A DNA stretch of 25,947 nt, from positions 1 through 25,947 of IMG/VR virus record IMGVR_UViG_3300027805_000078; one strand, written 5' to 3'. The position numbers were made by a program, and so were the translations under genes. Source of the DNA: a virus. Below, one piece after another: positions 5,072-24,615 of the stretch (positions are counted from its first letter, which is position 1; each line of letters opens with the position of its first letter). The notes beneath the pieces are model-generated. The model saw nothing but the letters and a program-made list of their open reading frames with translations, searched no databases and was not told the DNA's origin.

Positions 5072-8000
5072 TTACTTTACTCCGTACAAAATTACTGTTG
5101 CTACCTGTCCTGAGGCATCATGATTAAAACGAATGGCGTTGATAACACCAGTAATTGTAGCTTCTGTGGAGGCTGTAGTATAAGTACCTGTTGCTCTATT
5201 GTTAGTGTTAGCAATACCAGTAATAGCAGAGAACCTTGGAGTAATTACTTTACTAGTTGCAGCAGTACCAACATTTGAAATAATACAAAATCCACTACCT
5301 ACACCATCATTTGCTGCAACGTTGTTAATAGTTCTATTGACTCCATATGAAGTACCATTATTAGAACTTAGATTAACATAAAAATCAGCATTACTTGACA
5401 TCTGTATATTATAATGGACATAGAAAGTTGTATAACCACTGGGAATGCTGGTAAAAGCAAGTGCAGTAGTTCCTGATTGAACACCACTTGAAATATATTC
5501 CAGAGCTAAAGCACTACCACCACTGGCAGCAGCCCAGATAGGGGCAACACCAGAACCTTGTGCAGTCAGTACCTGACCAGAAGTACCTGTTGTATCAAGC
5601 TTGGCAAGTGTGGCAGCACCAGAACCAATCTTGGCAGCAGTGACAGCACCTGTGGCAATAGTCGCAGCAAAAGAGCCTGTGCCAGTTCCAGTAACATCGC
5701 CCGTAAGCGTTATGGTCTGGTCGCCAGTGTTGGTGCCAGAAGACGTACCAGAGAAAGTTCCGGACTGTGTAGCTAGTGTACCAAGTCCAAGGGTGGTGCG
5801 TTGAGCAGCTGCATCAGCATCATCAAGCAATGCTTTGCCAGCCGTAGTAATGTCTCCACCAAGTTTTGACGTTGAGACTGAACCAGCAGCAATAGTTGCA
5901 GCAAAAGAACCCGTACCAGTACCAGTAACATCGCCCGTAAGCGTTATAGTCTGATCGCCTGTGTTTGTACCGCTGCTTGTTCCGCTAAATGTTCCCGATT
6001 GAGTGGCTAGTGTACCAAGGCCGGAGATGTCTGTGTTGGCAATCGTAGCCCATGATGGAGCAGCAGACGCGCCACCAGATTTCATGTATTGAGTTGATGT
6101 TCCGTAGTTTGCACCAGAAATGCCCCACTGACCAGATGATCCAATACGGAATCGTTCGACAGCAGCATTCTGTGTGCTACCTGTTGTACCAGCAGGGGCG
6201 GTCTGAAGTGTAATCGCGCCACCAGCACCTGTACCAGTACCTATGGAACCCCTGATAATAAAATCCTGTCCAGCAGTATCTGTTGTGCCAGCTACAACAG
6301 ATGAAGCATAAAGTGTCTGAGCCACAGGAGTAGCTTGGTCAACGCCTAGCTGTAGAACGCCAGCAGAAGGAGAAGTGAGGATAGCTCTGTTTGTCCACAA
6401 GACTCTACCTGTACCAGCAGCAATCAAATTACCACCAGACGTAATATTACCACCAGACGTAACAGCACCATTTTGGTCTACTCTGAAAGAAGTAGAATCA
6501 GGATTTGTGCTATCCTCTACACGGATTGCATCGCCAGTACCAAGCTGGGTCACTCGGAGAGCAGCATTGGTATTGTCAGTAACTTGGATAATCTGGTTTG
6601 CAGTGAATGTGTTTGATACCTCAGTCCCCGCAGCAGCCAGAGTCGTGCGCTGAGCAGAAGCATCTGCATCGTCTAACAGTGCCTTACCGGCAGTCGTAAT
6701 GTCACCGCCAAGCTTGGATGTATCAACAGCACCAGCGTCAATCGTCCATGTAGTACCAGAAGCGGATACTGTAATGTCACCTTTGTCACCGTCAGACACA
6801 GCTGGGCCAGCAGGACCTGCAGGACCCGTTGGGCCAGTAGGTCCTACCTGGGTGTACATTACTTGTGTAGCAGTAAGGACTACACCTGGTGTCTGCGGAA
6901 CAGAGCCAGAAGCAGGAATCGTCTCAATAGCAACACTACTGCTAGATGCCTTCCAGTAAAGCTGAAGCGTATCATTAGCATTCGGGGCAGTGTCTACATA
7001 ATTGACAGTACCGACTGTATAGCCAGGAAGTCCACCCTGTTGCTTAGGAATATGGAAACGAGTGTTACTGTTTGGGTACGCAGTTCCGTTGAACACTAGC
7101 CAGACGTCTACGTAATGCTCCGAACTGTCTGTGTTAATAAACTGAATTGAGTACGTTAGGTTATACGTAGCAGAATTAGCAAAGACAACTGTATTCCCGC
7201 CAGTAAGCGAGACGCCATTGGCTTCATTTGTTGAACCAATAGCAATCGCAGCACCAGAAGCTCCAGTTGGACCAGTCTGGTCAGTTGTGTCGTAGAACGA
7301 TCCGTAATAACCTAAAGCACCACCAGCACCAGTTGCACCAGTAGCACCTGTAGCACCAGTAGCACCTGTGGCGCCAGTAGGGCCAGTATCGCCAGTGTCA
7401 CCTTTTGGACCTTGAGGGCCTGTGGCGCCAGTTGCACCTGTAGCACCTGTTTCCCCGGTATCGCCTTTAATACCTTGGGTACCCTGAGGACCAGTGTCAC
7501 CAGTATCGCCTTTAGAACCAGTAGCACCAGTGTCACCCTTGTCACCCTTGGCGCCTGTAGGCCCAGTATTACCAGTAAGACCCTGAGGGCCCTGAGCACC
7601 AGTAGCGCCTGCATCACCTTTCAAGGTGAATAGGACGGCTCCCCAGTTACCAGAGACCTTCTGGTAGACGTCGCCATTGTCACGAAGATAGAAGTCTCCG
7701 TCAGCACCAGTGCCACCAGATGGTGTACTTGCACCAGTAATCCACTTGGAAGAGATGAAGTCCCAGGTAGTGCCATTGTACGTCTTGAGACGGGCACCTA
7801 CGCTGTTAAAATACAAAGCCCCGGCAATGAGGGCGTTACCATCATTATCCAGGGCAGGATCAGAATTCTTTGCACCCAGATAACGATCATCGAAGTTATC
7901 GTACAGGGCTGCGGTGTTGTCGTAGATAGTCGTGACCTGGTTGATCAGGCCGTCGAACTCAGCCTTACGGACAGGTTCGGTATTACCCACAGCTGCCACA

Positions 8001-8182
8001 AGATTTTGAATCCGGTAGCTGTTCATATCGAGGTTAGCACCCATCGAGTTCGGGGAAGACCCGTCACGCGATAGCGTATTCTCAATAGCTGTCTCAATCA
8101 ACGCACTATTAGCGTTAATAGAAGAAATAGCACTTGTTTCGTTTGTCAGAGTCGTCAGATCTGTGAGGGTAATTTTAGGCAT
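5072..8182 (-). CDS. Tail fibre with collagen-like repeats
   Basis: This 1036-residue protein is the likely receptor-binding fibre. The N-terminus (about 1-110) has the virion-attachment pattern [15 protein letters not shown] followed by [10 protein letters not shown]. Residues of about 115-190 are a GTTWDF-type spacer. A collagen-like Gly-X-Y block of about 100 residues (coding bases about 7312-7620) contains many GATGATGAT units, and a short second block ([15 protein letters not shown]) lies near 6800-6850. The rest is a repetitive beta shaft with two near-identical [18 protein letters not shown] units, then a non-repetitive C-terminal tip ending VILYGVK. Gly-X-Y in phage fibres forms trimeric collagen-like helices. 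A chaperone-like gene follows. The repeats make it prone to recombination. Confidence 0.85.
5656..5785. repeat. Tail-fibre shaft repeat A, copy 1
   Basis: This is a 130-bp unit, read from CAATAGTCGCAGCAAAAG to GCTAGTGTACCAAG, that recurs as copy 2 at 5890-6019 with identical length. It encodes the [18 protein letters not shown] shaft module. Most differences between copies are at synonymous positions, showing selection on the protein rather than a very recent duplication. Confidence 0.85.
5793..5872. repeat. Tail-fibre shaft repeat B, copy 1
   Basis: This is an 80-bp unit encoding [20 protein letters not shown] followed by AQRTTL. A second copy of equal length lies at 6642-6721, more diverged at the DNA level but nearly identical in protein. 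Confidence 0.8.
5890..6019. repeat. Tail-fibre shaft repeat A, copy 2
   Basis: This is the second copy of the 130-bp shaft unit, 234 bp from copy 1. Parts are nearly identical (for example ACATCGCCCGTAAGCGTTAT in both) and other parts have drifted synonymously. Confidence 0.85.
6642..6721. repeat. Tail-fibre shaft repeat B, copy 2
   Basis: This is the diverged second copy of the 80-bp unit at 5793-5872. It again encodes [20 protein letters not shown], placed just before the stretch that follows the short second collagen block. Confidence 0.8.
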
Positions 8183-10915: not shown

Positions 10916-12726
10916 TAAGCCACAGCCTCATCCATTGAGGAATCGTAGTCATCCTGAGCAATACCAGCAGGGGTCATAGATTCAACACTGACCTGTTCCT
11001 GATGGCTATTAGAAAGTCGCTGTGCGTCAGCTTGTTCGGACAACTGAATAAACGGTTCAACCAGTTTATAGTCTTCTAGGTTAAAGAGTTCTTCAATCAT
11101 CTCGGAAATTTTAATACCTGAGAAGTGTACTTTAATTGTTGGGTCTTGACCCATCGGAGAATTAAAGAACTGTGTGAGATTTTGAATAATCTCAGCTTTC
11201 TCAGCAAAGTGGCGAGCGGCAAGAGGACGCATACGGCCTTGGCCAGTAATGTCTTGAGCATTAAGGGTAGAGAACATAGCTACCTTAAACTCGTCATTGA
11301 ACGCCCGGATAGTAGTCTTACCCATCTTACGGCGAGCTAGTTCGAGCATTGCGTTCAGTAGCGGTTCTACAACCTGTTCCTCGAACTGAGCAATCTTAGA
11401 TTGGAAGATACGGCCAGCAGCAGATTCAAGACGCTGCACTTCGTAAGCAGTCTTTTCCCCAGGAGAACGGATGCCCATGGCTTCCTTCGGAGAGCCAGCC
11501 ATCTCTTCCATCTTCTGTTCGACGATGGCGATCTCAGTATTTACCTGAAGAGCTGAGGCATTGGGAGTCAGAAGTTCTACCTCACCATCGTCACCCATGT
11601 AAATACGTTCCATGGGGCCGTAGTTGAAGTCTTCGACATAACCCTTGATACGGATCGGCGGGAAAACCGTCAGATCCATCACGTCAGCCTTGAGGTTTTC
11701 AAGGTGGTCGATGCGGTACTGCATGCCTACGAGGTTATCAAGCGGGCCCATAGCCCACAAGTTATCCTGACGTACACGCCAACCAGCGTGGAAGATCGGA
11801 GCAATACCAAAGAACGAGTCATTAGGGCGACTAGAAAGAACTTTGTGACGGTCGACCACGGTAATGATGTGGTTTTCCAACAGAGTATCTGTTTCGCTGT
11901 CGTAAAGATCGCCGTAGAAGGTCAGAACTTCACAATAACCAGACTGGAGATAAGAGAAGTAGTTACCAAAGCCATCAACCTGGAGGTAGCTGTCTTTTTC
12001 AGCTAAGTCAAACGTCGGTTGATGCGTAGAAGTATTAGAGTTTGAGCGGTACCGGACTAGGTACTGGAAGATGTCTTCCACTTCCTTCATGTTCTCAGGA
12101 CTCGTCTGAGACATCAACTGCTTCTTAAGTTCACCAAGGCTAATCAATGAACGAATAATTTTGGGAGAATTCTCAAAACTCTCAGCAATCGGATTAAAGA
12201 CAATGTCAAGAGGAGAGATTCGACGCGGAACTGGGCCTACGTAACCAACCTGCTGCCTATCGCCAACGGTCTTTGTCTGATCTACAAAATCAACTGTAGC
12301 AAAGCAGTTGCCATAATCAATGTAGTCTAGGACAAGCTTAGAGACTTCGTTCTTGAAGTTGGAGCGATCAATTGACCATTCCATATACGATTCAATAACG
12401 TCACGCTTCTCTTTAGTATCAGAACCTTCTTCGGCACCTTCCCAGTACAGCCACTTTCTTTTGGGGAAGAGTGATGCAATGTAATTGGCGCTGAGGTTGT
12501 CTCGGATCTGGCACAGCTTCGGAATCGTGGTCTTGTTCTTCCACGGAAGCTGGGAGTTAGTAGTCTCAGTCGTATCGGTAGCAAAGACGTAGCGGCGGAT
12601 CTCATTCCACTCGCTAATCTTAACCTGACGGAAGGACTGCCAATCCTGGTACTTACGGGCGATCTCGGTGCCAAGGTTGTCCGGGGCTAGACCCAGGGTC
12701 TCAATGTCGAGGGTTTTACCCGCCAT
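10915..12726 (-). CDS. Portal protein (head-tail connector)
   Basis: This 603-residue protein forms the dodecameric DNA channel at the capsid vertex. Length and order (terminase, portal, scaffold, capsid) fit. Visible parts are an N-terminal helical start, the wing-type segment LCQIRDNLSANYIASLFPKR (about 72-91), the stretch GPLDNLVGMQYRIDHLENLK near residues 320-340, and MGIRSPGEKTAYEVQRLESA (about 418-437), a pattern I associate with podovirus portals. The C-terminus is polar and Gln-rich. The start overlaps the large-terminase stop by one base (TAATG). Confidence 0.85.
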   Translation of the reverse strand: MAGKTLDIETLGLAPDNLGTEIARKYQDWQSFRQVKISEWNEIRRYVFATDTTETTNSQLPWKNKTTIPKLCQIRDNLSANYIASLFPKRKWLYWEGAEEGSDTKEKRDVIESYMEWSIDRSNFKNEVSKLVLDYIDYGNCFATVDFVDQTKTVGDRQQVGYVGPVPRRISPLDIVFNPIAESFENSPKIIRSLISLGELKKQLMSQTSPENMKEVEDIFQYLVRYRSNSNTSTHQPTFDLAEKDSYLQVDGFGNYFSYLQSGYCEVLTFYGDLYDSETDTLLENHIITVVDRHKVLSSRPNDSFFGIAPIFHAGWRVRQDNLWAMGPLDNLVGMQYRIDHLENLKADVMDLTVFPPIRIKGYVEDFNYGPMERIYMGDDGEVELLTPNASALQVNTEIAIVEQKMEEMAGSPKEAMGIRSPGEKTAYEVQRLESAAGRIFQSKIAQFEEQVVEPLLNAMLELARRKMGKTTIRAFNDEFKVAMFSTLNAQDITGQGRMRPLAARHFAEKAEIIQNLTQFFNSPMGQDPTIKVHFSGIKISEMIEELFNLEDYKLVEPFIQLSEQADAQRLSNSHQEQVSVESMTPAGIAQDDYDSSMDEAVA

Positions 12727-14285
12727 TATCTAATTCCACCAAATCTAGAGGAGCCGAACGAGTTACCTTCCTGTTTATTCAGACTGACCTTGCTGGACGT
12801 CTGACGGGAAGGTGGGACGGCGATTTCAATAACAGAAGCCAAGGCATCCTTGACGTCATCGTGAGGAGGATTCTGCAGGACGAGCTCTTCTTCAAGAGTC
12901 TGACAGTTACCACCAGCGTAGTGCCATATCTGGCCGTTGGCGTAACGTGGCTGCAGTGCGGCTTCGATGCGCTCTTCCTTGTTACCCATGTGTCGATTAG
13001 GGCGGAAGGCTTCGATCGTAAGTGCAAGTCCGTGCTTACGGACGTAATTAGTCTTGAGGTCTTCGACGATAACTGCCTGAGCTACTGTGACTTCAGCTCG
13101 GAGTTTCCTGAAGTCCCACTTTTGGTGGAGGTACAGGATCTTATCAAAGTACTCGGAGATCAGCTTGGATCGGAATCTTTCGATGTCGAGGATGTAGTAA
13201 TTGTGGACTGCATCAACGCCGACAACAACGATGGACGTGTAGTCAGCGGTTTTAGCAAGACTGAACGCGAAGTCGATACTTGCAAAGACATTGAGCCGCT
13301 TGCCTTTGTAGAACCACAAGCCGTTCTGACGCGTGAGGTGGTTGCGGTCGTAGTACTGAAAACTCTCCCGAGGAATCGACGCAGTCGACGAGTCATTGGG
13401 ATTGTTGTAGTATTGCGCTCGGAATTGAGTCCGATCGAGGTACTGAGCACGCTTCTTAGCCAGAATTCGATCATCAAAACCAAACCACTTACCGTCGTTA
13501 CGTTGCTGACGGGGCCACAGGAATTCACCTGAACCATCACCTCTGGACTCCACTTGATACTCTACTTTTTCGTAGAGAGGTTCGGAGTCAACGACTTCAC
13601 CTTCGTCACTATAGATATCTACCTGCATCTCGACCATGTCATTATACAGGTCTCGTGGGTGATACCGTGTGCCTACGACCCACTCTTGGGCGTCTGCACC
13701 TTCGATAGACGAGAGGAGCGAGTACTGTTGCTTTGTCTTTTCGCGGCCTTCTTCGGTGTAGGCGTTCTCACGGACGACGACATCATCCAGAACAGCCACG
13801 TCACAATGAAGACCGGTAATAGAGGTAGTGAGACCAGCAGTGAAAATAGTTGGGTCACGGACAGCTTCAGCCTTGCGTTTGGGGTGATCGACAGAGATTT
13901 CGTACTCTGTCCACTTCTCGCGCTTGCCTTCGTCCGGGTGGATCATCTCTGGCCAGTAAAACCGGTAGATGTCGGAGGTCAGGATGTCCTTGATAAACTT
14001 GAGCTGCTTCGTAGCCAGGTTTGCCGTGGACGAGATGTATAGGATGCGAACCGCTGGATTACGGGTAACCCACCAGGCTACCCGATACGCTACGAGGGCT
14101 GACTTCTGGTGGTCACGGGGCATCAGGAGTAGCTGGTGGCTCTTCGCCTCTTCCCTACTCCACCACCGGATTACTTCCCGGTGGCAAGACCCAAGAACAC
14201 GTCCTGGGTGGATGAGAGTAATGAACTTCTCAAGGTCAGCTTCAGCAGCTTCTCGGATAGCCTGCTTCTTATCGGCAGGATTCAC
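12726..14285 (-). CDS. Terminase large subunit (packaging ATPase and nuclease)
   Basis: This 519-residue packaging motor has a GTG start. Domains: the N-terminal ATPase carries an unusual Walker A-like loop MPRDHQKSA (about 55-63), an ISSTANLA segment and Walker B VAVLDD (163-168). The C-terminal RNase H-fold nuclease has SIDFAFSL (D338), a second Asp near 348 and the acidic PPHDDVKDAL near 475. The ribosome site is poor (AAGG abuts the GTG), but no ATG lies upstream of the conserved part. The Walker loop lacks the classic GxxGxGK(T/S) form, which is common in phage terminases. It is followed at once by the portal gene. Confidence 0.9.
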   Translation of the reverse strand: MNPADKKQAIREAAEADLEKFITLIHPGRVLGSCHREVIRWWSREEAKSHQLLLMPRDHQKSALVAYRVAWWVTRNPAVRILYISSTANLATKQLKFIKDILTSDIYRFYWPEMIHPDEGKREKWTEYEISVDHPKRKAEAVRDPTIFTAGLTTSITGLHCDVAVLDDVVVRENAYTEEGREKTKQQYSLLSSIEGADAQEWVVGTRYHPRDLYNDMVEMQVDIYSDEGEVVDSEPLYEKVEYQVESRGDGSGEFLWPRQQRNDGKWFGFDDRILAKKRAQYLDRTQFRAQYYNNPNDSSTASIPRESFQYYDRNHLTRQNGLWFYKGKRLNVFASIDFAFSLAKTADYTSIVVVGVDAVHNYYILDIERFRSKLISEYFDKILYLHQKWDFRKLRAEVTVAQAVIVEDLKTNYVRKHGLALTIEAFRPNRHMGNKEERIEAALQPRYANGQIWHYAGGNCQTLEEELVLQNPPHDDVKDALASVIEIAVPPSRQTSSKVSLNKQEGNSFGSSRFGGIR

Positions 14286-15063: not shown

Positions 15064-15584
15064 CAGTTTACTTCCAATCGTTTTGAATCTTCGAGGAGTC
15101 TTCGGTCTGTGATGGCCATTTCGTCTGCGGCCTTCTTGACGTCTTCTTTTGAGGGACGTCCCCGTCCGTGGGGCTTACCGTCTTCCTTTTCCACCCATCC
15201 GCGATCGACCAGGAATTTGTTGGCAGCGAAAGCGTTCTTGGAGGAGGACTCGGCTTCGGCTCGGAGACCACGTAGGGCCCTGGCCTTGATTTTGAGGGAG
15301 AGCTCCTTACGCCACCTTTCTGCATACGGCTTGAACCATTCCGCAGAAGTCAGCATCTCCCAGTGCTCCCAGCCATCCAAGTACGTGTTAGAGAACTCGT
15401 ACTCGGTCAAATCCTCCATCTCCATGTAAAGACGGTAGAGGGAGGGAAAGCCTTCGTGGTCCCAGTCCTTCAGGGAATAGACGACAGAAGACTTATCAGC
15501 CAAGGTAGTCTCAAAGAATAGACCTTTGAGGTAACGTCCGTTAGTGGAGTTACGGAACTTGGAGCGGTGCTCTGGGAGAGACAA
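15063..15584 (-). CDS. Terminase small subunit
   Basis: This 173-residue protein should recognise the packaging site and load the large subunit. I use a TTG start at 15584: AAGG lies 8 nt upstream and the first in-frame ATG is about 50 codons later. Visible features are VVYSLKDWDHEGFPSLYRLY (about 34-53), WEHWEMLTSAEWFKPYAERW (about 72-91) and a basic helical KELSLKIKARALRGL. The C-terminal tail carries HGRGRPSKEDVKKAADEMA, resembling an AT-hook-like GRGRP. It is the first gene of the leftward operon, about 110 nt from the promoter. Confidence 0.8.
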   Translation of the reverse strand: MSLPEHRSKFRNSTNGRYLKGLFFETTLADKSSVVYSLKDWDHEGFPSLYRLYMEMEDLTEYEFSNTYLDGWEHWEMLTSAEWFKPYAERWRKELSLKIKARALRGLRAEAESSSKNAFAANKFLVDRGWVEKEDGKPHGRGRPSKEDVKKAADEMAITDRRLLEDSKRLEVN

Positions 15585-15703
15585 AGAAATTACCTTAAGT
15601 TATACTTTAAGTATCAAGAGACTAAAAGGTAACTGCAGTCTATAGTCCAAGTTAGCCTTAAGGTGCTCTCCAACACTTGAGCTTAACCTCAGCTCATACA
15701 TTA

Positions 15704-15732
15704 AGTATACCATACGTAAGCATGGAAGTCAA
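15704..15732 (-). promoter_or_regulatory. Sigma70-type promoter for the leftward structural operon
   Basis: On the minus strand, TTGACT (15732-15727) is followed by exactly 17 nt and TATACT (15709-15704). One mismatch in each hexamer and optimal spacing make this the best promoter in the window. Transcription should start near 15697, giving a ~110-nt leader before the small terminase TTG. The flanks are AT-rich, and GTATAC overlaps the -10 as a small palindrome. Its presence means that host RNA polymerase could read the virion genes. Confidence 0.75.
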
Positions 15733-15800
15733 GAAGAAAATGTTGAAATGGAGGAATTTCTGCTAGAAAATCTCAAGGTGGTATTCATACTACAGGGTAA

Positions 15801-15838
15801 ACCCCCAGCCCCCTCTATACCGGGGGAGTACAGGGGGT
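15801..15838. repeat. Double C-tract/G-tract inverted repeat
   Basis: ACCCCC (15801-15806) pairs with GGGGGT (15833-15838), and CCCCC (15809-15813) pairs with GGGGG (15822-15826) inside it, with loop TCTATACC. The strand asymmetry (C-rich then G-rich) is striking against the surrounding sequence. Confidence 0.75.
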
Positions 15839-15851
15839 ACTTACTGAGTGG

Positions 15852-15883
15852 ATAGGCAGGGGTGTGTAGCACCTATAGCCTAT
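15852..15883. repeat. Two-step inverted repeat
   Basis: ATAGGC (15852-15857) pairs with GCCTAT (15878-15883) and encloses GGTG/CACC with loop TGTAG. It lies 13 nt after the G-tract stem, so the two may stack. Confidence 0.65.
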
Positions 15884-15993
15884 GCCATTACGCTAACTCA
15901 TTGATTATACACAATGTGTCCGCTTCGCAGTGGCTCCGACAACACACTGCCGATCCATACTCGGTTGCGGCGTCGGGTGGTGCCCACGATTCA

Positions 15994-16008
15994 CCCACCT
16001 TTGGTGGG
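15994..16008. repeat. Tri-loop hairpin CCCACC/GGTGGG
   Basis: A perfect 6-bp stem encloses a 3-nt TTT loop. It is one of three hairpins of the same 6-bp stem, 3-nt loop design in this region (others at 16036-16050 and 16532-16546). Confidence 0.7.
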
Positions 16009-16035
16009 ATCTCGTGGTCATTCCTTTGCACCAAG

Positions 16036-16050
16036 CTTGCCTTCGGCAAG
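16036..16050. repeat. Tri-loop hairpin CTTGCC/GGCAAG
   Basis: A perfect 6-bp stem encloses loop TTC, of the same form as the hairpins at 15994 and 16532. Confidence 0.7.
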
Positions 16051-16066
16051 TCCGTGCTGCAGGCTA

Positions 16067-16103
16067 CCACAGGATTCACGGGCTAAAGCCCGATCTCCTG
16101 TGG
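16067..16103. repeat. Long composite hairpin
   Basis: The outer stem CCACAGGA/TCCTGTGG is a perfect 8 bp, and the inner stem CGGGC/GCCCG is a perfect 5 bp with loop TAAA. Small internal loops (TTCA and ATC) separate the stems. It is one of the most stable structures of the region. Confidence 0.8.
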
Positions 16104-16241
16104 TGACGTCCGACAAGCGGACATCGGGTCTGAGTGCGTTGACCGCTGCGGGCCAACGGGCCTCACGAGCGTCCGCTCCGCTACCTCTCGTTCGCCCGAC
16201 TCACCTAGCCAAAGCCGCGTCGCTCCTTCGCTTCGCTTCGG

Positions 16242-16261
16242 ATTTTCCTTAGACGGAAAAT
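16242..16261. repeat. Hairpin ATTTTCC/GGAAAAT
   Basis: A perfect 7-bp stem with a 6-nt loop (TTAGAC), directly after the 17-bp direct repeat CCTTCGCTTCGCTTCGG. Confidence 0.65.
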
Positions 16262-16449
16262 ACGCTCCTAACTTTGGCTCTGCTGCGCAGACGGTTCGTT
16301 GCCCTCCGCTACGTAGTACATCACAACAGAATGCTGCTTGTGACGCCAGCGGCATCACCCAAACGCATCTGAGTAAAGACCCTTCGCTTCGCTACGGCGA
16401 GCTCCAGAGAAACAAGTAAAGTCAGCCAAAGGCTTTGCCTTCGTCTGAC

Positions 16450-16486
16450 CAAACACAAAGTTCACTTTGGGTGAACTTTCTGTTTG
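16450..16486. repeat. Long hairpin with 9-bp perfect stem
   Basis: AAAGTTCAC (16457-16465) pairs perfectly with GTGAACTTT (16471-16479) around loop TTTGG. Outside a 2-nt internal loop, CAAAC (16450-16454) pairs with GTTTG (16482-16486). Confidence 0.8.
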
Positions 16487-16499
16487 CTTCTTTCTCTTC

Positions 16500-16546
16500 C
16501 GGTCTTGACTCAGACCGCGTCGCTCGAAGGAGCAGCCTTCGGCTGC
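16500..16546. repeat. Two adjacent hairpins flanking a GTCGCTC copy
   Basis: CGGTCT/AGACCG (16500-16517) is followed by a CGTCGCTC word and by GCAGCC-TTC-GGCTGC (16532-16546). The second is followed by ACTCTTTTAG, a weak terminator-like context for rightward reading. Confidence 0.6.
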
Positions 16547-16665
16547 ACTCTTTTAGTTTGCCCTAACGTTCGTCGTCGTCCCTCCTCCTCACTCTCGCTC
16601 GGTCGCTCCCTTCGGTCGCTCGGTCGCTCCTACGGGCGTCGCTCCAAGCTTGCGTTTGCGTGAAG

Positions 16666-16671
16666 TATAAT
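16666..16671 (+). promoter_or_regulatory. Consensus -10 element for the rightward early block
   Basis: A perfect TATAAT lies 55 nt upstream of the first rightward start codon. At 17-nt spacing the -35 position reads TCCAAG, a poor match, and there is no extended -10 TG. An activator binding the GTCGCTC words just upstream could compensate; that is inference. Confidence 0.4.
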
Positions 16672-16726
16672 ACGCGTCAGCAGCATTCCGTTGCTGATGT
16701 TTGCTAAAATGAATCGGAGTAAGAAC

Positions 16727-16978
16727 ATGATGATCAACATCACCAGCTACGGCGATCTTCCTATCATCGACGAGGAGTTCGACGAATACGGCTTCGATGC
16801 CTTAGACCTTCCGCCCCGTGCAGACGACGAGGAGGAAGCTATCTACCAACGCTGGGTAGACCTAGACGTTAAGCGCCAGATCGAAGAACGCCAGCGCTTG
16901 AGCTACAAGTTCGCGCGTCACTCAGCTCACGTCCAAGCTTCACTTGACAAGTTCTACATCACAAACGGAGGTAAATAA
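16727..16978 (+). CDS. Small acidic early protein
   Basis: This 83-residue protein is started at the ATG at 16727, which has GGAG 7 nt upstream; a longer TTG-started frame from 16691 lacks a ribosome site. The N-terminal half is acidic (DLPIIDEEFDEYGFDALDLP), and the C-terminal half is a charged helix (VKRQIEERQRLSYKFARHSA). It is the first gene of the right arm. First early genes of T7-like phages often encode host-takeover proteins, but no known family is recognisable here. Confidence 0.75.
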   Translation: MMINITSYGDLPIIDEEFDEYGFDALDLPPRADDEEEAIYQRWVDLDVKRQIEERQRLSYKFARHSAHVQASLDKFYITNGGK

Positions 16979-16979
16979 G

Positions 16980-17084
16980 ATGGACGACTTCGACATCTTA
17001 GACGACTTCGATGACTTCGACGACGACTTCAAGGCTCAGCGTAACGAACGTCGGGCAGAGCAAACTGAAACAGAGGATGAGTAA
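16980..17084 (+). CDS. Very acidic 34-residue micro-protein
   Basis: The peptide begins MDDFDILDDFDDFDDDF, with ten Asp in the first 17 residues alternating with Phe/Ile, and ends in a mixed-charge tail RRAEQTETEDE. The ribosome site GGAGG lies 8 nt upstream, the best of the early block, so translation is very likely. Acidic small early phage proteins can mimic DNA (T7 Ocr is a larger example). That comparison is an analogy only: this peptide is much shorter and has no detectable similarity by eye. Confidence 0.75.
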   Translation: MDDFDILDDFDDFDDDFKAQRNERRAEQTETEDE

Positions 17085-17085
17085 T

Positions 17086-17178
17086 ATGGATACGTTCTTG
17101 ACCTACAGCTTCTACGTCGTACTCGCAGTTGCAGCATACGTAGCCTTCTGGACCTTCTACTTCGATTGGACAGAGTAA
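17086..17178 (+). CDS. 30-residue single-pass membrane peptide
   Basis: The product MDTFLTYSFYVVLAVAAYVA followed by FWTFYFDWTE is one hydrophobic helix with short ends. GAGG lies 9 nt before the ATG, and the start follows the previous stop by 1 nt. A small early membrane peptide could alter the host membrane or block superinfection; the sequence alone does not show which. Confidence 0.65.
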   Translation: MDTFLTYSFYVVLAVAAYVAFWTFYFDWTE

Positions 17179-17188
17179 ATTGATAATC

Positions 17189-17242
17189 AACATCTTCGGC
17201 TTGGAAGTGGCTCGGCAAGAGCCTCACCAAGTCGGGGATGTT
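17189..17242 (+). promoter_or_regulatory. Three-segment hairpin in the leader of the 208-aa gene
   Basis: AACATC/GATGTT, GGCTTGG/CCAAGTC (one G-U pair) and GGCTC/GAGCC nest in order, with small internal loops and a GGCAA apical loop. There is no T-run after it, so it is not a terminator. It could be an RNase III processing site, as between T7 early genes, or a stabiliser of the downstream mRNA. Confidence 0.65.
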
Positions 17243-17285
17243 AAGTAACACATCCATCAACAAATCAGATACAGGATTAAAAACT

Positions 17286-17912
17286 ATGACTCGCATTCTC
17301 GAAGCTATCTACAACACCGCACGTAACGATGAAACGAAGGTTCAGCTTGAAAGCACTGGTGGACACCTCACCGTTGCCATTGACAAGGGACACGACTCAA
17401 TCGCTTCGACGTTCGCCGACTGGCTTGAACTCTCTGCCCGCATGGATGCCTACAACTCAGGCAAGACCGTCGTAGAGGCACGCACGAGCTACCCAGTGAC
17501 CAACATCTGCAACCTCTGGCACAACCAACTCTACGGCAACCGTACGCTTGCTGAAGCGCAGCTTGAGGAACGCTTGGAGTTCCCGAACAACGCTTACTGC
17601 TCTTATCAGAACGTCAAGGTTCGTGAGCAGCAATACGACGCTGTAAAGAACGAAGAGGATGGGATGCAAGGCCCGAGTGCAGAAAAGGACACTGCGTTCT
17701 TGAACAAGGAAGAAGCAGTCCTGTGGAACGCTTACTGCCTCGCTAACTACCATGCAGCTTGCACACTCTTCGAAGAGATCTTCGCAACACCGTTTGTGTA
17801 CAAGCCCTACGATCAGAAGCCTCGCACGATCGCAGGCTCTGCAAACGCCAAGCGCCTTGCTGAAGAACGTAAGGCACTCTTGGCTAAGCGTGCAGCTGGC
17901 ACGGTTAAGTAA
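17286..17912 (+). CDS. Early protein of unknown function
   Basis: This 208-residue protein starts MTRILEAIYNTARNDETKVQ, with AGGA 9 nt before the ATG. It is mostly helical, with DKGHDSIASTFADWLELSAR (about 33-52), RTLAEAQLEERLEF and a lysine/arginine-rich C-terminus (NAKRLAEERKALLAKRAAGT). Cysteines (for example in NICNLW and AYCLANYHAACTLF) do not form a clear zinc motif. No membrane segment is visible. GC-rich codons and a strong terminator right after it suggest high, isolated early expression. I do not recognise the family. Confidence 0.8.
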   Translation: MTRILEAIYNTARNDETKVQLESTGGHLTVAIDKGHDSIASTFADWLELSARMDAYNSGKTVVEARTSYPVTNICNLWHNQLYGNRTLAEAQLEERLEFPNNAYCSYQNVKVREQQYDAVKNEEDGMQGPSAEKDTAFLNKEEAVLWNAYCLANYHAACTLFEEIFATPFVYKPYDQKPRTIAGSANAKRLAEERKALLAKRAAGTVK

Positions 17913-17921
17913 CAACTATCA

Positions 17922-17970
17922 GGTGGTGGAGCTTGTGGCTACGGCTGCAAGCTTCACCGCCTTTTTTTTT
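17922..17970 (+). terminator. Strong intrinsic terminator
   Basis: GGTGGTGGAGCTTG pairs with CAAGCTTCACCGCC over 14 bp (two G-U pairs) around a 12-nt loop, and nine T follow directly. It lies 10 nt after the stop of the 208-aa gene and closes the first early block. Confidence 0.9.
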
Positions 17971-18439: not shown

Positions 18440-18550
18440 ATGATTGAATCAAGACGTTTCAACCACGATACACTGCCCCATCCACTGATTCCCATCAGTG
18501 CTATGACGGTACTTTTCTTGTCGATGTTTGGCATCATCCTGTTCTTTTGA
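18440..18550 (+). CDS. 36-residue membrane micro-protein opening the ligase cassette
   Basis: The product begins MIESRRFNHDTLPHPLIPIS and ends in one hydrophobic segment, AMTVLFLSMFGIILFF. GGAG lies about 9 nt before the ATG. The stop overlaps the ATP-grasp ATG as TGATG, so the ligase is probably translated by coupling to it. It may anchor the pathway at the membrane, or may act mainly as a leader for translation; the sequence does not decide. Confidence 0.65.
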   Translation: MIESRRFNHDTLPHPLIPISAMTVLFLSMFGIILFF

Positions 18551-19293
18551 TGTTCAGATATCTTCTCAAATCACACAGCTTCCGGCGTACACCAGTACTC
18601 CTCAAACACACACTAGGTGCACGGAAGCTTGTGTCTGCGGGAGGTAGGTTCCAGCCTCAACTAGACTGGCTCAGAGACTTCTTCATGGCGTATCCCCCTG
18701 TCTACGCCGGAATTATGTCTAACCTACCTCCCAGCTATAGGCACCTGTCTAACTTCTGGTCATCTAACAAAAATGAACAGCGCGAGCTTCTACAGTCATG
18801 TGGTATCATGACACCAGAGTCTCACACTGACAACGCAACCCACTATATCGTCCGTCCCAATCGCCATTATGGAGGTGTTGACTATCGCATCGTAACTGAC
18901 CCAACTGACTTCAATCCAGCTACACACTACGTAGCACCGGCATTCCCTAAGAAACGGGAGTACCGAGTAGTCTTTGTGTACGGCCACCCTCTGATTCTAA
19001 TGCGTAAGAAACCAGGCCCCGATGTAGGCCTGTTTGACCCATGGAATCATGCCAACGGTTCGTACTTCCAAACAATATCGTCAATGGACCAGTGTCGTCT
19101 GGCCCAGGACACATCGTTCTTCTCGGACATTCAAAAGATCTGCGTCGTTCGTGACGCACACCTTGTAGCTGCTGACGTAATGTCGGACGGCAATCGCTAC
19201 GCCGTAACCGAACTCAACTTCAGCCCGAGTATCACACTTCATGACAACCTCTTGAGGATTAAGAACCATGTTGAATCTGTGCAAAATCACTGA
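18550..19293 (+). CDS. ATP-grasp family ligase
   Basis: This 247-residue protein is predicted to join a carboxylate to an amine through an acyl-phosphate, using ATP. Motifs in order are HYIVRPNRHYGG (about 98-109, the nucleotide-binding strand and glycine loop, with Arg where Lys is usual) and REYRVVFVYGHPLILMRKK (about 136-154). Then come VAADVM (D209) and the metal/ATP-binding TELNFSPSITL (E221, N223). The N-terminal ~90 residues are a divergent pre-ATP-grasp region. I start at the ATG at 18550 (TGATG overlap with the micro-protein), not the TTG just before. The end overlaps the amidoligase start by 26 nt. The substrate is unknown. Confidence 0.8.
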   Translation: MFRYLLKSHSFRRTPVLLKHTLGARKLVSAGGRFQPQLDWLRDFFMAYPPVYAGIMSNLPPSYRHLSNFWSSNKNEQRELLQSCGIMTPESHTDNATHYIVRPNRHYGGVDYRIVTDPTDFNPATHYVAPAFPKKREYRVVFVYGHPLILMRKKPGPDVGLFDPWNHANGSYFQTISSMDQCRLAQDTSFFSDIQKICVVRDAHLVAADVMSDGNRYAVTELNFSPSITLHDNLLRIKNHVESVQNH

Positions 19294-21139
19294 TCCATCT
19301 ATCAAACTTACGTCTGACGACATCAGTAAACTTTTAGACCCACGTCAAAGTCTCCATCTTGTCAACCGTTCTACAGTAACACCCCGTCAGTTCATTGACT
19401 GGGTCAAGGCTACTGTTACTGACGAGACTGTAGATACACATTTACTTTCTAAGTCTGACTACTACAACATCTTTGCCGACGCTAATGAAGCACGTAAATT
19501 CCACGGCTATCAACTGACTAAGCAGATCTTTACTAAGCATCCCAAATGGTTGACTGAGTTCTGCAGGATTGGCTTCAGTCACGACGGAAGTTTTCAGTTT
19601 GAGATCGGCAAACCAAAAATTGCTGAAAATCCTGAGGAACGCTTTAACTATACGTACAGTAACAGTCAATTTACGTACCTTGGTGCATCATCAAACCCGT
19701 ATGCCGACAACTATTACTATACAGGCGATGTATCTATTTCTGATGAAAATCTAGCCAGTATTCATCAGATACTCGATGAACTTGAGGCTTCGTTCTCAGT
19801 CTTTCTTGACATGTCTCCTAACGTTGACGCACCTACTGAATCTGATCGTTTGTTCCGTTCAAGTTACCATACCCAGGTCTTGTCTACGTTGTACTCGTAC
19901 TTGTGTGATCGCTCTATAATTAGTTATCGACACGCACACAGTGGGTATGACTCTATCCGACCAAGTACTGCTTTTACCCGTATGAACGCAATTCCAGATG
20001 ATTTTCGATCTCGTATCCAATACAAGGTTGATTGGGCAGACGGACGTTTTCTCCTAGTGTACACCGAACCACGTCAACCTGCTACTCGTGACTACCTTGC
20101 CAACATCCTCAATTACAGTACCAACGTTCTTGACGTCTTGCCATTCAACATCCGTGGCAAGAAGGAACAAGTATCGCCGCTCTACGGTATCGAGCTCGAA
20201 GCTTGCTCCAACTACAGCCCTGCTACTGTCATTGCAGCCCAGCAGGAGTTGTTCTTCATCCTCAAGCAAGACGGTTCAATAAGTGGCGAGGGTCGCTACA
20301 AGTACGAGATGGTAACCGTACCTGCTACGTTCAAAGCACACAAGCGTCTCTGGGCTGAGTTCTTCAACAAGATCGACTACACCCAGTTCGATACGTCTAA
20401 GTCAACTGGCAATGGTATGCACGTACACATTGACCGTAATGCTTTCAAGGCCAAGGGTCACCTCAATCGGTTCACTTGGTTCTTCATCAACCCTGCCAAT
20501 CTTGACTTGTTGTACGAGATGTCTGAACGCCCAAGCAAGAGCGACATGTTCCGCTGGGCCCCTGTTCCGACACTTCTCAACACCAAGATTGTTACTATGT
20601 TTGATACAGTACGTTCCAATCGTGGATGTCGTGGTGTTATCCACTTCAAGGGCCAGTCGACTGTCGAGATCCGACTGTTCAAGGGCGTCGTATCGTATGC
20701 TACTATCGTCAAGAACCTGGAGTTTGTCGACTCCATGTTCCACTTTACACAGGTCACATCATTGACCAACATTACGTTGCCCAACTACCTTGCCTGGCTA
20801 GCAAGTCAACCCAAGAATCGTTACACTATGGTTCGTGAGTTCTTGTCTCAACTCAAGAACATTGACCAACTCCTTCTGGGTAACGAGCTCAAAGAGTACC
20901 TGTTTACTGCCAACAAGCCTGAGGTAGTCTTGGAGAAGTTGCAGAAAGCCAAGTTCAAGGTTACTAACAAGCACCTTACGATCCTCAATCGTGAGCGTCG
21001 TAAGCGTACATTCATCCTTGACAAAGCTGGTCAGCTTCAACTTGCGTTCTCTAATGCGGGCAAACTAGCATCCCTCGACAAGGAACTGCAAGCCAAGATG
21101 ACTCGCGGTTCTTCCACTATTTCGTTCAACCTTGTCTGA
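19268..21139 (+). CDS. Amidoligase (glutamine-synthetase-fold COOH-NH2 ligase, Amidoligase_2-like)
   Basis: This 623-residue protein has the amidoligase domain at about 305-525: YGIELEA (307-311, metal/ATP glutamates), KQDGSI (333-338), YEMVTVP (346-352), GNGMHVHIDRNAF (381-393) and VEIRLFKG (466-473). These are the ordered motifs of the putative amidoligase family related to glutamine synthetase. It should form an amide or isopeptide bond with ATP. The N-terminal ~300 residues are a separate region I cannot assign, with a Tyr/Asn-rich part near 125-155; the C-terminal ~100 are basic and helical. GAGG lies 10 nt before the ATG. The start lies inside the ATP-grasp gene. Confidence 0.85.
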   Translation: MLNLCKITDPSIKLTSDDISKLLDPRQSLHLVNRSTVTPRQFIDWVKATVTDETVDTHLLSKSDYYNIFADANEARKFHGYQLTKQIFTKHPKWLTEFCRIGFSHDGSFQFEIGKPKIAENPEERFNYTYSNSQFTYLGASSNPYADNYYYTGDVSISDENLASIHQILDELEASFSVFLDMSPNVDAPTESDRLFRSSYHTQVLSTLYSYLCDRSIISYRHAHSGYDSIRPSTAFTRMNAIPDDFRSRIQYKVDWADGRFLLVYTEPRQPATRDYLANILNYSTNVLDVLPFNIRGKKEQVSPLYGIELEACSNYSPATVIAAQQELFFILKQDGSISGEGRYKYEMVTVPATFKAHKRLWAEFFNKIDYTQFDTSKSTGNGMHVHIDRNAFKAKGHLNRFTWFFINPANLDLLYEMSERPSKSDMFRWAPVPTLLNTKIVTMFDTVRSNRGCRGVIHFKGQSTVEIRLFKGVVSYATIVKNLEFVDSMFHFTQVTSLTNITLPNYLAWLASQPKNRYTMVREFLSQLKNIDQLLLGNELKEYLFTANKPEVVLEKLQKAKFKVTNKHLTILNRERRKRTFILDKAGQLQLAFSNAGKLASLDKELQAKMTRGSSTISFNLV

Positions 21140-21154
21140 CCTGGAGTATCAAAT

Positions 21155-22171
21155 ATGTGCGTCATTATCCACCGTATTCCCGGTCAGGATCTTCCGTTTG
21201 AGAAGCTAAAGTCTGCTTGCATTGTCAATCCTGATGGCTTTGGTGTACTCATTCCCGACCGTGGTAAGCTCGAGATGCGTCGTGTCTACGACGTCAACGG
21301 CAACGCAGCAGACAAACTTGCCAAGTTGTTCGAGGATGCCAAAGGTCTGGACGTCTACGCTCACCTCCGCTTCCGGACTAAGGGCCCCAAAGATCTAACC
21401 AATGTCCACCCCTTCACTGTCGTCAACAAAAAGACTGACGGCATTGACGTCCAGTTCATGCACAACGGTACACTCCCTGACTTCGGCAACGACATCGCAT
21501 GTGACTCTCGTGCATTCACCTTCGAAATCGTCCGACCTCTCTATCGTATGGTAGCAGCCCAGGTAGGTACTGAGAAGGCTTTGTACGACCCACTGTTCGG
21601 CAAACTACTTACTAAATACGCTGGACCTAGCTCAATCTTTACTCTTGTTGACAGCTTTGGTAACAACCTTATCATCAACAAAAAGCAAGGCTTTAAGTTT
21701 GATTGGGGCTGGGCTTCTAACGAGTACTCATTCAGGCGTGACCATCGTGACTACGGATACTCTACATCGTACCGACAGTACAAAGCCAACAACTACAAGT
21801 CATCTGAATCAACGTCTTGGGTTATTGGAGAAAACGGTAGCTCTGAGGTAGATAAGGAGTTCAATGACGAACTCCCTTTCGACAACCCGACGACCAAGAC
21901 CAAGACCAAAACTACGACGGCTTTACCCGAGGTAATGAACAAGACTGGTACCCCGGCTGCAATCATTAGCCGGTCTAATATGCCAGTTACATCTAACCGT
22001 CAGACATTCCTTGACGTGGCTGAGTTGCACGACCTCTCTGAGGTCACGAATCTGTCACGTGAGGACATTGAAGACCTCGTAGATGAGTATCCTGAGCATG
22101 CTTGCTTGCTGATCCAGGACCTTATCACAGAACTGTATGACCGTCAGCAGTCACTTAAGGAGGCAGCATGA
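21155..22171 (+). CDS. Class II glutamine amidotransferase-like (Ntn hydrolase) protein
   Basis: In this 338-residue protein the second residue is Cys (MCVIIHR), the expected N-terminal nucleophile after Met removal. Family positions follow: NPDGFG (25-30), YAHLRFRTKG (68-77, substrate Arg), NVHPF, FMHNGTL (101-107, oxyanion Asn-Gly) and CDSRA (D117). All key glutaminase residues seem present. The usual role is releasing ammonia from glutamine or cutting a gamma-glutamyl amide. Residues beyond about 195 are an extra part with a TKTKTKTT linker and a charged helical end. There is no synthase domain attached, so partners must be the ligases. GGAG precedes the ATG; the end overlaps the next gene as ATGA. 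Confidence 0.85.
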   Translation: MCVIIHRIPGQDLPFEKLKSACIVNPDGFGVLIPDRGKLEMRRVYDVNGNAADKLAKLFEDAKGLDVYAHLRFRTKGPKDLTNVHPFTVVNKKTDGIDVQFMHNGTLPDFGNDIACDSRAFTFEIVRPLYRMVAAQVGTEKALYDPLFGKLLTKYAGPSSIFTLVDSFGNNLIINKKQGFKFDWGWASNEYSFRRDHRDYGYSTSYRQYKANNYKSSESTSWVIGENGSSEVDKEFNDELPFDNPTTKTKTKTTTALPEVMNKTGTPAAIISRSNMPVTSNRQTFLDVAELHDLSEVTNLSREDIEDLVDEYPEHACLLIQDLITELYDRQQSLKEAA

Positions 22172-22713
22172 CTAGCTTTCACAAGTGGTTCAACGAGAAG
22201 GTAGAGGGTCATTACTATACCCCTGACATGCCTGATCTGTACCGCCAGGAGTCACACTTCCTGTTCATTGCAGACAATGTAATGACCGGAGAAGCCCGTC
22301 ATCGCCTGCTTCAGCAAGAAGAAGATTTTATTTTTCATGGTCCGGCCTTTACAAAGGAAGCAACTTATGGTATCATGATTAGGTCTAGTACAGTTGAAGC
22401 TGCCAACCCCGTCTACTTTGAGGTTGGATCTAGACCTAATGCAGCCTTTGTCTACGGCGAACTCTATGAAGTTACCCCCGAGATCATATGTGAGCTCGAT
22501 TACTACCAGGCTAACCGTCTAATTACTAACCGTAAGAAGGTTGACATTGTAACCAGAACTGGTGGTGTTGAAACACCTGCATGGATGTACTTAGCTGACA
22601 CAGACTACTTCGTCGATCCCAAAGCTGCTGATCGACTGCAGCCTTACAATCAGCGTGAGTACTTGTGGAATGTACCAGTCATTGCCTGGAACAACACTAT
22701 TTTTGTCAACTAA
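22168..22713 (+). CDS. Gamma-glutamylcyclotransferase-fold protein with altered active site
   Basis: In this 181-residue protein the GGCT/AIG2-like fold shows as HFLFIADNVMTGEARHRLL (30-48), FIFHGPAFT, FVYGELYEV (94-102) and ICELDYYQANRLIT (107-120). In active members the first motif is YGxL-like and the LDxxEG motif carries the catalytic Glu. Here they read IADNV and LDYYQ, so Gln114 replaces the Glu. It may be inactive on gamma-glutamyl amines, bind the product, or use other chemistry. It starts inside the amidotransferase stop (ATGA). The fold assignment is by pattern. Confidence 0.75.
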   Translation: MTSFHKWFNEKVEGHYYTPDMPDLYRQESHFLFIADNVMTGEARHRLLQQEEDFIFHGPAFTKEATYGIMIRSSTVEAANPVYFEVGSRPNAAFVYGELYEVTPEIICELDYYQANRLITNRKKVDIVTRTGGVETPAWMYLADTDYFVDPKAADRLQPYNQREYLWNVPVIAWNNTIFVN

Positions 22714-22739: not shown

Positions 22740-23027
22740 ATGTCACGTTGCAGTATCTGTGACTATTCGCAATCAGCCCCTTCATTCTATAACGAAGGGC
22801 TACAGTACTACCAAAATAACAACCGAGTCGTATACGTAAAAGAACATGGAGACATCTGTGTGTCATGTCTTGACAGCATTAATAACATTAATGTCTTTGC
22901 TACAGCAATGAAGCAAGACAACACAGGTCTTGGCGTCTACGACATTGTCGATATTGAACCTTTAGATGAGGAGTTCCAGCCAGACATGTTCCCAGTCCAA
23001 GTACCTGATGATGACATCCAACAGTAA
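22740..23027 (+). CDS. Small zinc-ribbon-like protein before primase-helicase
   Basis: In this 95-residue protein two CxxC pairs, CSIC (C4, C7) and CVSC (about C41, C44), suggest one zinc site. The C-terminal third is acidic (DIVDIEPLDEEFQPD). AAGGA lies 9 nt before the ATG at 22740. It overlaps the primase-helicase start by about 20 nt, which suggests a replication role such as nucleic-acid or helicase binding. I do not recognise a named family. Confidence 0.75.
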   Translation: MSRCSICDYSQSAPSFYNEGLQYYQNNNRVVYVKEHGDICVSCLDSINNINVFATAMKQDNTGLGVYDIVDIEPLDEEFQPDMFPVQVPDDDIQQ

Positions 23028-24615
23028 GCTGGTCAAGTCCCACCAACCTTGCGTCCGCTGCGATAGTTCTGATGCCTTGTCAATCTACGATGATGGTCAC
23101 GGCTATTGCTTTGCCTGTAACTACTACTACAAGGATGCCACTGTATTGCTTGACCCAAATGTCCAACCCGAAGTCACCGCTGCTACGCCTGAGTTCGGGG
23201 ACTTTACGTTCCAGTACGTCGAGTGCCGAGGTATCCGCACAGAGACGATGCAGTTCTTTGTCGTTCAGACGAAGGTCGACCCGGAGGGCAAACCCGTAGC
23301 CCACGGCTACACCTACCCCAACGGGGCAGTAAAGATCCGAGACCTGGAGACCAAGCAGTTCCGAGCCCAGGGTCCCATGTCCGACGCTACTCTCTTCGGC
23401 AAGGACAAGTTCCCTGCAGGTGGCAAGGCCATCGTCATCACCGAAGGTGAGCTCGATGCTATGTCTGCATGGCAGATGCTTGGGCGCCACACTGCCTGCG
23501 TGTCTGTCCGATCTGCTTCATCAGCCCGCAAGGATTGTGCGTCCGAGTACGAGTATCTCAACAGCTTCGAGAAGATCTACCTATGCCTTGACAACGACGA
23601 ACCTGGTAACAAGGCATCACGTGAGATCGCGTCTCTATTCGACTTCAACAAAGTCTTCCAGATTCCTATGTCTTCATTCAAGGATGCCAACGGCTACCTT
23701 GAGGCTAACAAAGACACCGACTTCAAGACTGCTTACCTCAATGCCCAACGGTTCTTGCCTGAGGGTATCATCTCATCCAACGATGAGATCTTCTCAATCA
23801 TCGACAGCGAAGAAACCAAGGCTACCGCATCGTATCCGTGGCCTCAAGTACAAGACATCTCCAAGGGTATCCGTATGGGCGAAGTCGTCCTGCTCACTGC
23901 CCTTGAGGGTGTCGGCAAGACTGAGATCTTCCGTGCTGTCGAGTACCACCTACTTCAAACCACCGACGCTAACATCGGTATCATCCACCTAGAGGAGTCC
24001 AAGTCACGTCTGATCAAGGGCCTTGTAGGCTACGATCTCAAGACCCCTGTTCACCTCGACAGTAATGTATCCAAGGAAGAAATCAAACATGGATGGGAAC
24101 GAGTCACCAAACGAGATAATCGCGTACATATTTACAGCCACTTCGGATCAGACGATCCGGATGTTATCCTTGACGCGATCAGGTTTATGGCATCGGCGTG
24201 TGAATGCAAGTACATTTTCCTCGACCATATTACTATGCTCGTATCAGGACTGGACGATGGAGACGAGCGAAGGATTCTTGATTATATCTCAACCAAGCTG
24301 GCACACATGGTTGAAGAACAGGATTTCTGCCTCTTCCTCATCAGCCATGTCAACGACGACGGAAAGACTCGAGGCTCTCGTAACATCTCTAAGATTGCAG
24401 ACCTGAGTATCCATCTTGACCGTGACCTAACCAAAGCTGACCCAGTAGAGCGTAACACTACAAACTTGATCGTACGTAAGAATAGGTTTGCTTCACAGAC
24501 TGGTCCAGCAGGGCAGCTGTACTTCGATCCGTCTACCTACGTCATCAAAGAACGTGTAATGCCACCAGCTGGCTTGCCACCTGTGGAAACACCTCAACAT
24601 GTGGAGAATTTCTAA
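23008..24615 (+). CDS. DNA primase-helicase (T7 gp4-like)
   Basis: This 535-residue protein compares with 566 in T7 gp4. The N-terminal zinc site has CVRC (C15, C18) and CFAC (C34, C37). The TOPRIM primase core has VITEGELDA (E146) and LDNDEPG (195-200). The hexameric RecA-like helicase has the Walker A loop LEGVGKTE (299-306), catalytic Glu in HLEES (329-331), Walker B YIFLDH (402-407), LISHVND (444-450) and the arginine-finger region KNRFASQTGPAGQLY. It primes and unwinds DNA for the polymerase encoded about 800 nt downstream. The start is one of two adjacent ATGs (23008/23011), both inside the zinc-ribbon gene; neither has a good ribosome site, so coupling is likely. Confidence 0.9.
   Translation: MMTSNSKLVKSHQPCVRCDSSDALSIYDDGHGYCFACNYYYKDATVLLDPNVQPEVTAATPEFGDFTFQYVECRGIRTETMQFFVVQTKVDPEGKPVAHGYTYPNGAVKIRDLETKQFRAQGPMSDATLFGKDKFPAGGKAIVITEGELDAMSAWQMLGRHTACVSVRSASSARKDCASEYEYLNSFEKIYLCLDNDEPGNKASREIASLFDFNKVFQIPMSSFKDANGYLEANKDTDFKTAYLNAQRFLPEGIISSNDEIFSIIDSEETKATASYPWPQVQDISKGIRMGEVVLLTALEGVGKTEIFRAVEYHLLQTTDANIGIIHLEESKSRLIKGLVGYDLKTPVHLDSNVSKEEIKHGWERVTKRDNRVHIYSHFGSDDPDVILDAIRFMASACECKYIFLDHITMLVSGLDDGDERRILDYISTKLAHMVEEQDFCLFLISHVNDDGKTRGSRNISKIADLSIHLDRDLTKADPVERNTTNLIVRKNRFASQTGPAGQLYFDPSTYVIKERVMPPAGLPPVETPQHVENF

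Follow-up and report, generated by a model that had tools for sequence, protein, structure and literature searches.

Four consecutive genes upstream of a primase-helicase gene in a viral genome fragment form, to judge from their folds and from the same gene order in six other viral contigs, a reduced form of the amide-bond cassette known from phages. They encode an ATP-grasp ligase, an amidoligase, a class II glutamine amidotransferase (GATase) and a γ-glutamyl cyclotransferase-like (GGCT-fold) protein, and comparison with other loci points to the amidoligase-GATase pair as a near-constant core, the ATP-grasp and GGCT genes being accessory. The fragment, called the window below, is the whole 25,947-bp IMG/VR virus record IMGVR_UViG_3300027805_000078. 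A phage peptide-bond cassette was predicted by Iyer et al. (2009), as quoted by PMC10580990, PMC5498523 and PMC6256558; the sequence-only reading that drew attention to these genes had cited this prediction, and as far as the three citing papers relate it, correctly in substance. The name "peptidoglycan modification cassette" is used in PMC5498523, which lists phiEco32, 7-11, PA11, tf, MR299-2, LUZ24, PaP3 and CW02. The peptidoglycan proposal is repeated in PMC6256558 and PMC11945000 and is, as in PMC5498523, a prediction only; our literature search found no experimental test of the function of the phage cassette.

The window is organized in two divergent blocks, structural genes on the minus strand in its left part and replication genes on the plus strand in its right part. 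The structural block includes a 1036-aa, probably tail-related protein (5072-8182, minus strand) whose Gly-rich repeat (GPQGxxGxTG) resembles collagen. The two blocks are separated by about 1.6 kb (15584-17238) that holds no convincing long ORF and no tRNA or Rfam match, and scans of the whole window for both gave none. A 224-aa ORF without a PHROG match follows (17238-17912, plus strand); by eye it resembles a 227-aa ORF in the corresponding position of contig L047 (6277-6960). Directly 3' of it, a consensus scan alone identified a strong terminator-like stem-loop (17921-17962, plus strand, 19 bp stem, T8). This element is the probable upstream boundary of a transcription unit that would be the cassette's own.

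All five plus-strand ORFs described in the sequence-only reading were found, and the junctions are exact. A 36-aa ORF with one hydrophobic stretch (18440..18550) is joined by a TGATG overlap (TGA 18548-18550, ATG 18550) to the ATP-grasp gene (P0001, 18550..19293), which overlaps the amidoligase gene (P0002, 19268..21139) by 26 nt. A 15-nt gap leads to the GATase gene (P0003, 21155..22171), and a 4-nt ATGA overlap to the GGCT-type gene (P0004, 22168..22713). The first of these ORFs had been counted as a fifth cassette gene, a membrane peptide. We rejected it as a conserved member: among the six relatives a comparable hydrophobic leader was seen in L048 alone, with an unrelated sequence, so the peptide is no defining part of the cassette. 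It has a good Shine-Dalgarno sequence (-6.6 kcal/mol), whereas that of the ATP-grasp gene is weak (-1.5 kcal/mol), and it may therefore be a translated leader that couples translation to the poorly initiated ATP-grasp gene. Conversely, a Cys-rich 95-aa ORF with two CxxC pairs (P0005, 22740..23027, plus strand), absent from the earlier list, does belong to the conserved block; a similar ORF lies between the GGCT and primase-helicase genes in four of the six relatives (weakly in L049). The primase-helicase gene (22966..24615, plus strand, start codon uncertain) lies outside the amide chemistry and served as a positional anchor.

A search for related loci with P0002 alone gave none, and the cassette had no match among 50,697 phage records at the DNA level; using an alignment as the query instead produced 228 candidate relatives. 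In six viral contigs (L017, L047, L048, L049, L050 and L054) the order ATP-grasp, amidoligase, GATase, GGCT, primase-helicase was the same as in the window, and the 26-nt ATP-grasp/amidoligase overlap was identical in L047 and L049. L050 has a second amidoligase-like ORF (2047-2871) directly before its ATP-grasp gene, whose frame is split into two ORFs (2868-3335 and 3302-3661). The run is therefore no accident: the genes are kept together in relatives rather than scattered, which supports the earlier expectation that they should act together.

The four folds that had been assigned by eye are supported by Pfam for P0003 and P0004 and by predicted structures for P0001 and P0002. Pfam itself left P0002 just under the cut-off and did not match P0001 at all; P0001 and its relatives together gave a single weak ATP-grasp_3 match, and structure prediction was therefore used. 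Although tblastn of P0001 found nothing in phages, profile methods later found homologues, and hhalign related it to ATP-grasp proteins encoded in previously described phage cassettes (LUZ24 gp21, phi32_80 and RIO-1_14; 98.2%, E 4e-14). The best Foldseek match of the predicted structure (mean pLDDT 74) was ArgX (E 6.5e-9), and D-Ala-D-Ala ligase (Ddl), PsnB, LysX, RimK and glutathione synthetase were matched too. The catalytic positions K134, E137, R139, D209, E221 and N223 are invariant in the lineage, D209, E221 and N223 being the Mg/ATP-binding Asp, Glu and Asn of the fold. On this modelling P0001 is a member of the ATP-grasp superfamily, a carboxylate-amine ligase of the RimK/Ddl/LysX-ArgX type.

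With VIA-align the top match was RimK (Z 12.3 over 215 residues, rmsd 4.2). This would suit a role in protein modification, the ATP-grasp enzyme extending a host or phage protein with amino-acid tails, in the way that RimK modifies ribosomal protein S6, and similar roles have been proposed for phage R2K enzymes (PMC4431377). However, Ddl and ArgX matched P0001 equally well (Z 11-12 for the three, differences of less than 1 Z), and such a role leaves the amidoligase-GATase core unexplained; we hold it to be quite unlikely. The R2K profiles did not match P0001, and its phage homologues matched below cut-off only (R2K_2, E 0.002-0.04).

P0002 is, on the predicted structure, a GS/GCS-fold amidoligase. 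The Pfam Amidoligase_2 match was just below threshold (E 6e-4, 20.3 against a cut-off of 22 bits), and six of the seven lineage members matched in alignments made with loci from IMG/VR (best E 1.7e-4). The comparison by hhalign with LUZ24-type amidoligases gave E 9e-5 (59% probability). A search of PDB sequences with the amidoligase profile found no match, but the fold search succeeded: in the predicted structure, residues ~300-534 matched YbdK (Z 10.5 and rmsd 4.2 over 208 residues) as well as glutamine synthetases. The catalytic core (residues ~283-560) keeps the motifs GIELE, KxDGS, EMVTVP, NGMHVH and TVEIR, and the catalytic positions E309, E311, D335, S337, E347, H385, H387, E467 and R469 are invariant in the lineage. 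The N-terminal extension of ~280 residues is fast-evolving, and since pLDDT is below 50 for most of the first ~270-280 residues, no fold can be claimed there.

The glutaminase P0003 was matched by Pfam GATase_4 above cut-off (3e-5; 7/7 members in lineage alignments), and its lineage profile matches PurF. The catalytic residues, earlier described as intact, are all present and invariant: the nucleophile Cys2, Arg72, the oxyanion pair Asn104-Gly105, and Asp117. No recognised synthetase domain was found in the C-terminal part of the protein.

P0004 was matched by Pfam GGACT (9e-7; likewise all seven lineage members), and its lineage profile matches the GGACT chains 1vkb, 3jub and 3jud. By these matches it is a GGACT-fold protein, as had been proposed, but its activity as a cyclotransferase is doubtful. 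The acid/base Glu of the LDxxE motif (Glu82 of GGACT, Glu98 of GGCT) is replaced by Gln114 (codon CAG, 22507-22509), a point that the sequence-only reading had missed; the aligned site reads LDDFESC in 3jub, LDDFQSC in the GGACT mutant 3jud and LDYYQAN in the window, the same change as in the solved mutant. The Glu was kept in 31 of the 33 GGCT-type sequences of the fetched loci, a set that includes a few weak members, the exceptions being the window (Gln) and L050 (Asn). Mutating the equivalent Glu inactivates ChaC1 and GGCT but only lowers the activity of ChaC2 (PMC7022552), so loss of catalytic activity in P0004 is likely but not certain. An assembly error could also account for the Gln; the YGTL loop of P0004 is degenerate too, which counts against it.

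The cassettes of RIO-1, LUZ24, phiEco32, PA11 and PSA-HP1 are like that of the window in having an Amidoligase_2-type enzyme, a class II GATase, an ATP-grasp protein, a GGCT protein and a position before the primase-helicase gene (PMC5498523, PMC3890496). They differ from the window lineage, in which the order is ATP-grasp, amidoligase, GATase, GGCT, the amidoligase has its long N-terminal extension and no COOH-NH2 ligase (PF14395-type) was seen; the window GGCT protein, moreover, is without the catalytic Glu. A profile built from the COOH-NH2 ligases of LUZ24, phiEco32, RIO-1, RHph and phiM6 gave no match, and no second GATase was found, in the window or the available flanks of the six relatives. 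With these genes absent from the window, its cassette may make a different product from the larger ones; they could also lie outside the 25.9-kb fragment. The COOH-NH2 ligase is not universal in any case, as none is annotated beside the pair of MEP402. In the Methylophilales phages MEP401 and MEP402, as in the window, the gene directly behind the amidoligase gene encodes a class II GATase and the two lie upstream of the primase gene, but neither ATP-grasp nor GGCT is annotated beside the pair.

The nearest annotated set is that of the HMO-2011-like phages phiM6 and RHph_N3_19 (putative amidoligase, ATP-grasp, GATase II, GGCT and primase-helicase), with identities to the window of at most 36% for the GATase (tblastn), 22-24% for the GGCT protein, 24-25% for the ATP-grasp protein and 44% for the primase. 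The GGCT-like gene is annotated as hypothetical in RHph_N3_19 and RHph_N3_13. Unlike the window, phiM6 and RHph_N3_19 have a short amidoligase encoded before the ATP-grasp gene, and further upstream an extra COOH-NH2-ligase-like gene, a second GATase and a C26 peptidase.

The position beside the primase-helicase gene, from which action on a host target during replication, or the making of a small peptide for defence evasion, had been inferred, is real but not peculiar to this phage, being regular in LUZ24, phiEco32, phiM6 and RIO-1; cassette genes are also annotated there in RHph_N3_19 and RHph_N3_13, and UFV-P2 has the same genes before its primase-helicase (PMC3890496). By sequence, the phage that carries the cassette is Zobellviridae-like: the large terminase (12726-14285, minus strand) is about 64%, and at most 66%, identical to those of the Roseobacter Zobellviridae phages SIO1, P12053L and ICBM1. 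The best match of the primase-helicase, at 44%, is instead to HMO-2011-like Rhizobium and Sinorhizobium phages. With the two proteins nearest to different phage groups, the genome is a mosaic, and its structural and replication modules have likely recombined. The annotations of SIO1 and P12053L show no cassette gene upstream of the primase, whereas RIO-1, also a member of the Zobellviridae, has such genes; together with the affinity of the primase, this suggests, from annotation and identity comparisons made without a tree, that the cassette travels with the replication genes and not with the structural ones.

Amide chemistry on modified phage DNA bases during replication would be one use for a cassette that adjoins a primase-helicase gene, and the Gat-QueC phages have a GATase domain that we take to be of class II. 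That domain works on DNA bases (PMC6884629). However, the examined parts of LUZ24, phiEco32, phiM6 and RIO-1 have no annotated genes for 7-deazaguanine or hydroxymethyl-pyrimidine, and the amidoligase-GATase pair occurs on conjugative-type elements (see below), which makes this use highly improbable.

We then looked at the pair itself. In viral loci anchored on the amidoligase, a class II GATase was present in 80/80 and directly downstream in 77/80; the same loci had an ATP-grasp gene in at least 8 and a GGCT gene in at least 11, both counts being lower bounds since the profiles are narrow. Over all fetched loci the amidoligase was followed by the GATase in 131 of 145 proteins, with a median gap of 4 nt. 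As the loci were retrieved via an amidoligase or GATase sequence, close phage kin are over-represented, and the count by clusters at 40% identity (29 of 36) is the fairer one. The pair occurs far beyond these phages. In bacterial and archaeal loci from a one-genome-per-species collection, a GATase ORF lay beside the amidoligase in 28 of 29, and in Butyricicoccus the pair lies close to genes for a T4SS coupling protein, a MobA/MobL relaxase and an integrase, so that bacterial mobilizable elements are among its carriers. The pair of Butyricicoccus pullicaecorum (L142, 6608-8673) comes from a genome with five such loci. An automatic search for fused ORFs found none, probably because the GATase profile itself includes a fused member; Pfam on two candidates revealed that GATase and GGACT are fused in phages C75C1 and ctfjg026. 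When phage FJK.R9 was subjected to directed evolution, missense mutations arose in the amidoligase gene and in the adjacent-numbered gene, annotated as an aminotransferase (PMC11450229).

The near-constant position of the GATase directly behind the amidoligase suggests that the core is an amide synthase of two subunits that depends on glutamine. The window combines, in one tight conserved run, two ATP-dependent carboxylate-amine ligases of different folds, an intact class II glutaminase and a GGACT-fold protein. P0003 would release ammonia from glutamine and pass it to P0002, encoded next to it, and the two proteins would together act on a carboxylate. P0001 may attach an amino acid, or an amine of similar kind, to that molecule. 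In most relatives the GGACT-fold protein presumably cleaves gamma-glutamyl-amines, and P0004, its acid/base Glu being Gln, is probably a binding or structural partner. As a whole, this reading of the block as a reduced cassette with an amide synthase core and accessories is our best explanation, to which we give an even chance. Ammonia supply by the GATase is the simplest reading of the adjacency, just as separate glutaminases serve other amidotransferases. A precedent is MurT-GatD of Staphylococcus aureus, likewise a ligase and a separate glutaminase encoded as a gene pair, with a 4-bp gap, which amidates peptidoglycan (PMC3267633); it combines a Mur-ligase-like protein with a CobB/CobQ-type class I GATase instead of a GS fold with a class II enzyme and is no relative. 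A GATase acting as an opposing amidohydrolase would fit the adjacency too.

The cassette has also been described as a peptide ligase and hydrolase set (PMC5498523), in which the ligases build unusual peptide linkages while the class II GATase and the GGCT protein trim or recycle peptidoglycan peptides; the further upstream C26 gene of phiM6 and the RHph phages, gamma-glutamyl-hydrolase-like, would agree with it. Yet the GATase stays directly behind the amidoligase even where GGCT or ATP-grasp genes were undetected, as would be expected of a subunit more than of an enzyme for a separate degradation step, and P0004 is without its catalytic Glu; we regard this version as improbable, if still worth weighing. 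Less probable again is an auxiliary metabolic function in which a soluble metabolite, a glutathione-like peptide or a product of nitrogen metabolism, is made or modified. A similar set in Phage-ZRK32 has been read as nitrogen-metabolism genes (PMC10945688), and among the predicted folds are ones resembling GshB, YbdK and GGACT, but the authors of that reading offer it as speculation and several cellular copies lie on mobilizable elements, not in metabolic operons.

For the amide synthase, the target would be modified at an early stage of infection, in line with the proposals of Iyer et al. and Hardies et al. We tentatively weigh a cell-envelope precursor such as a peptidoglycan stem peptide highest, at somewhat less than an even chance, because the published proposal concerns the envelope and the pair is found on mobilizable elements, which would benefit from changes to the surface. 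A broader and more tentative proposal is that the pair is a two-subunit, glutamine-dependent amide synthase, widespread in phages and on mobilizable elements, whose role is to cap a carboxylate of the host, probably one in its envelope, with ATP-grasp and GGCT proteins optional and P0004 a non-catalytic binding partner.

Two points appear to merit further work: the core made up of amidoligase and GATase, and the cyclotransferase catalytic residue that has been lost naturally. The function of the phage amidoligase cassette has been a matter of prediction since 2009, and the four-enzyme version and the near-constant pair reduce it to a problem of two-protein biochemistry, while the natural Glu-to-Gln change in P0004 offers a built-in test of the need for cyclotransferase activity. 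If it is true that the pair amidates an envelope carboxylate, phages and conjugative elements would have a means of remodelling the surface of their hosts that is new.
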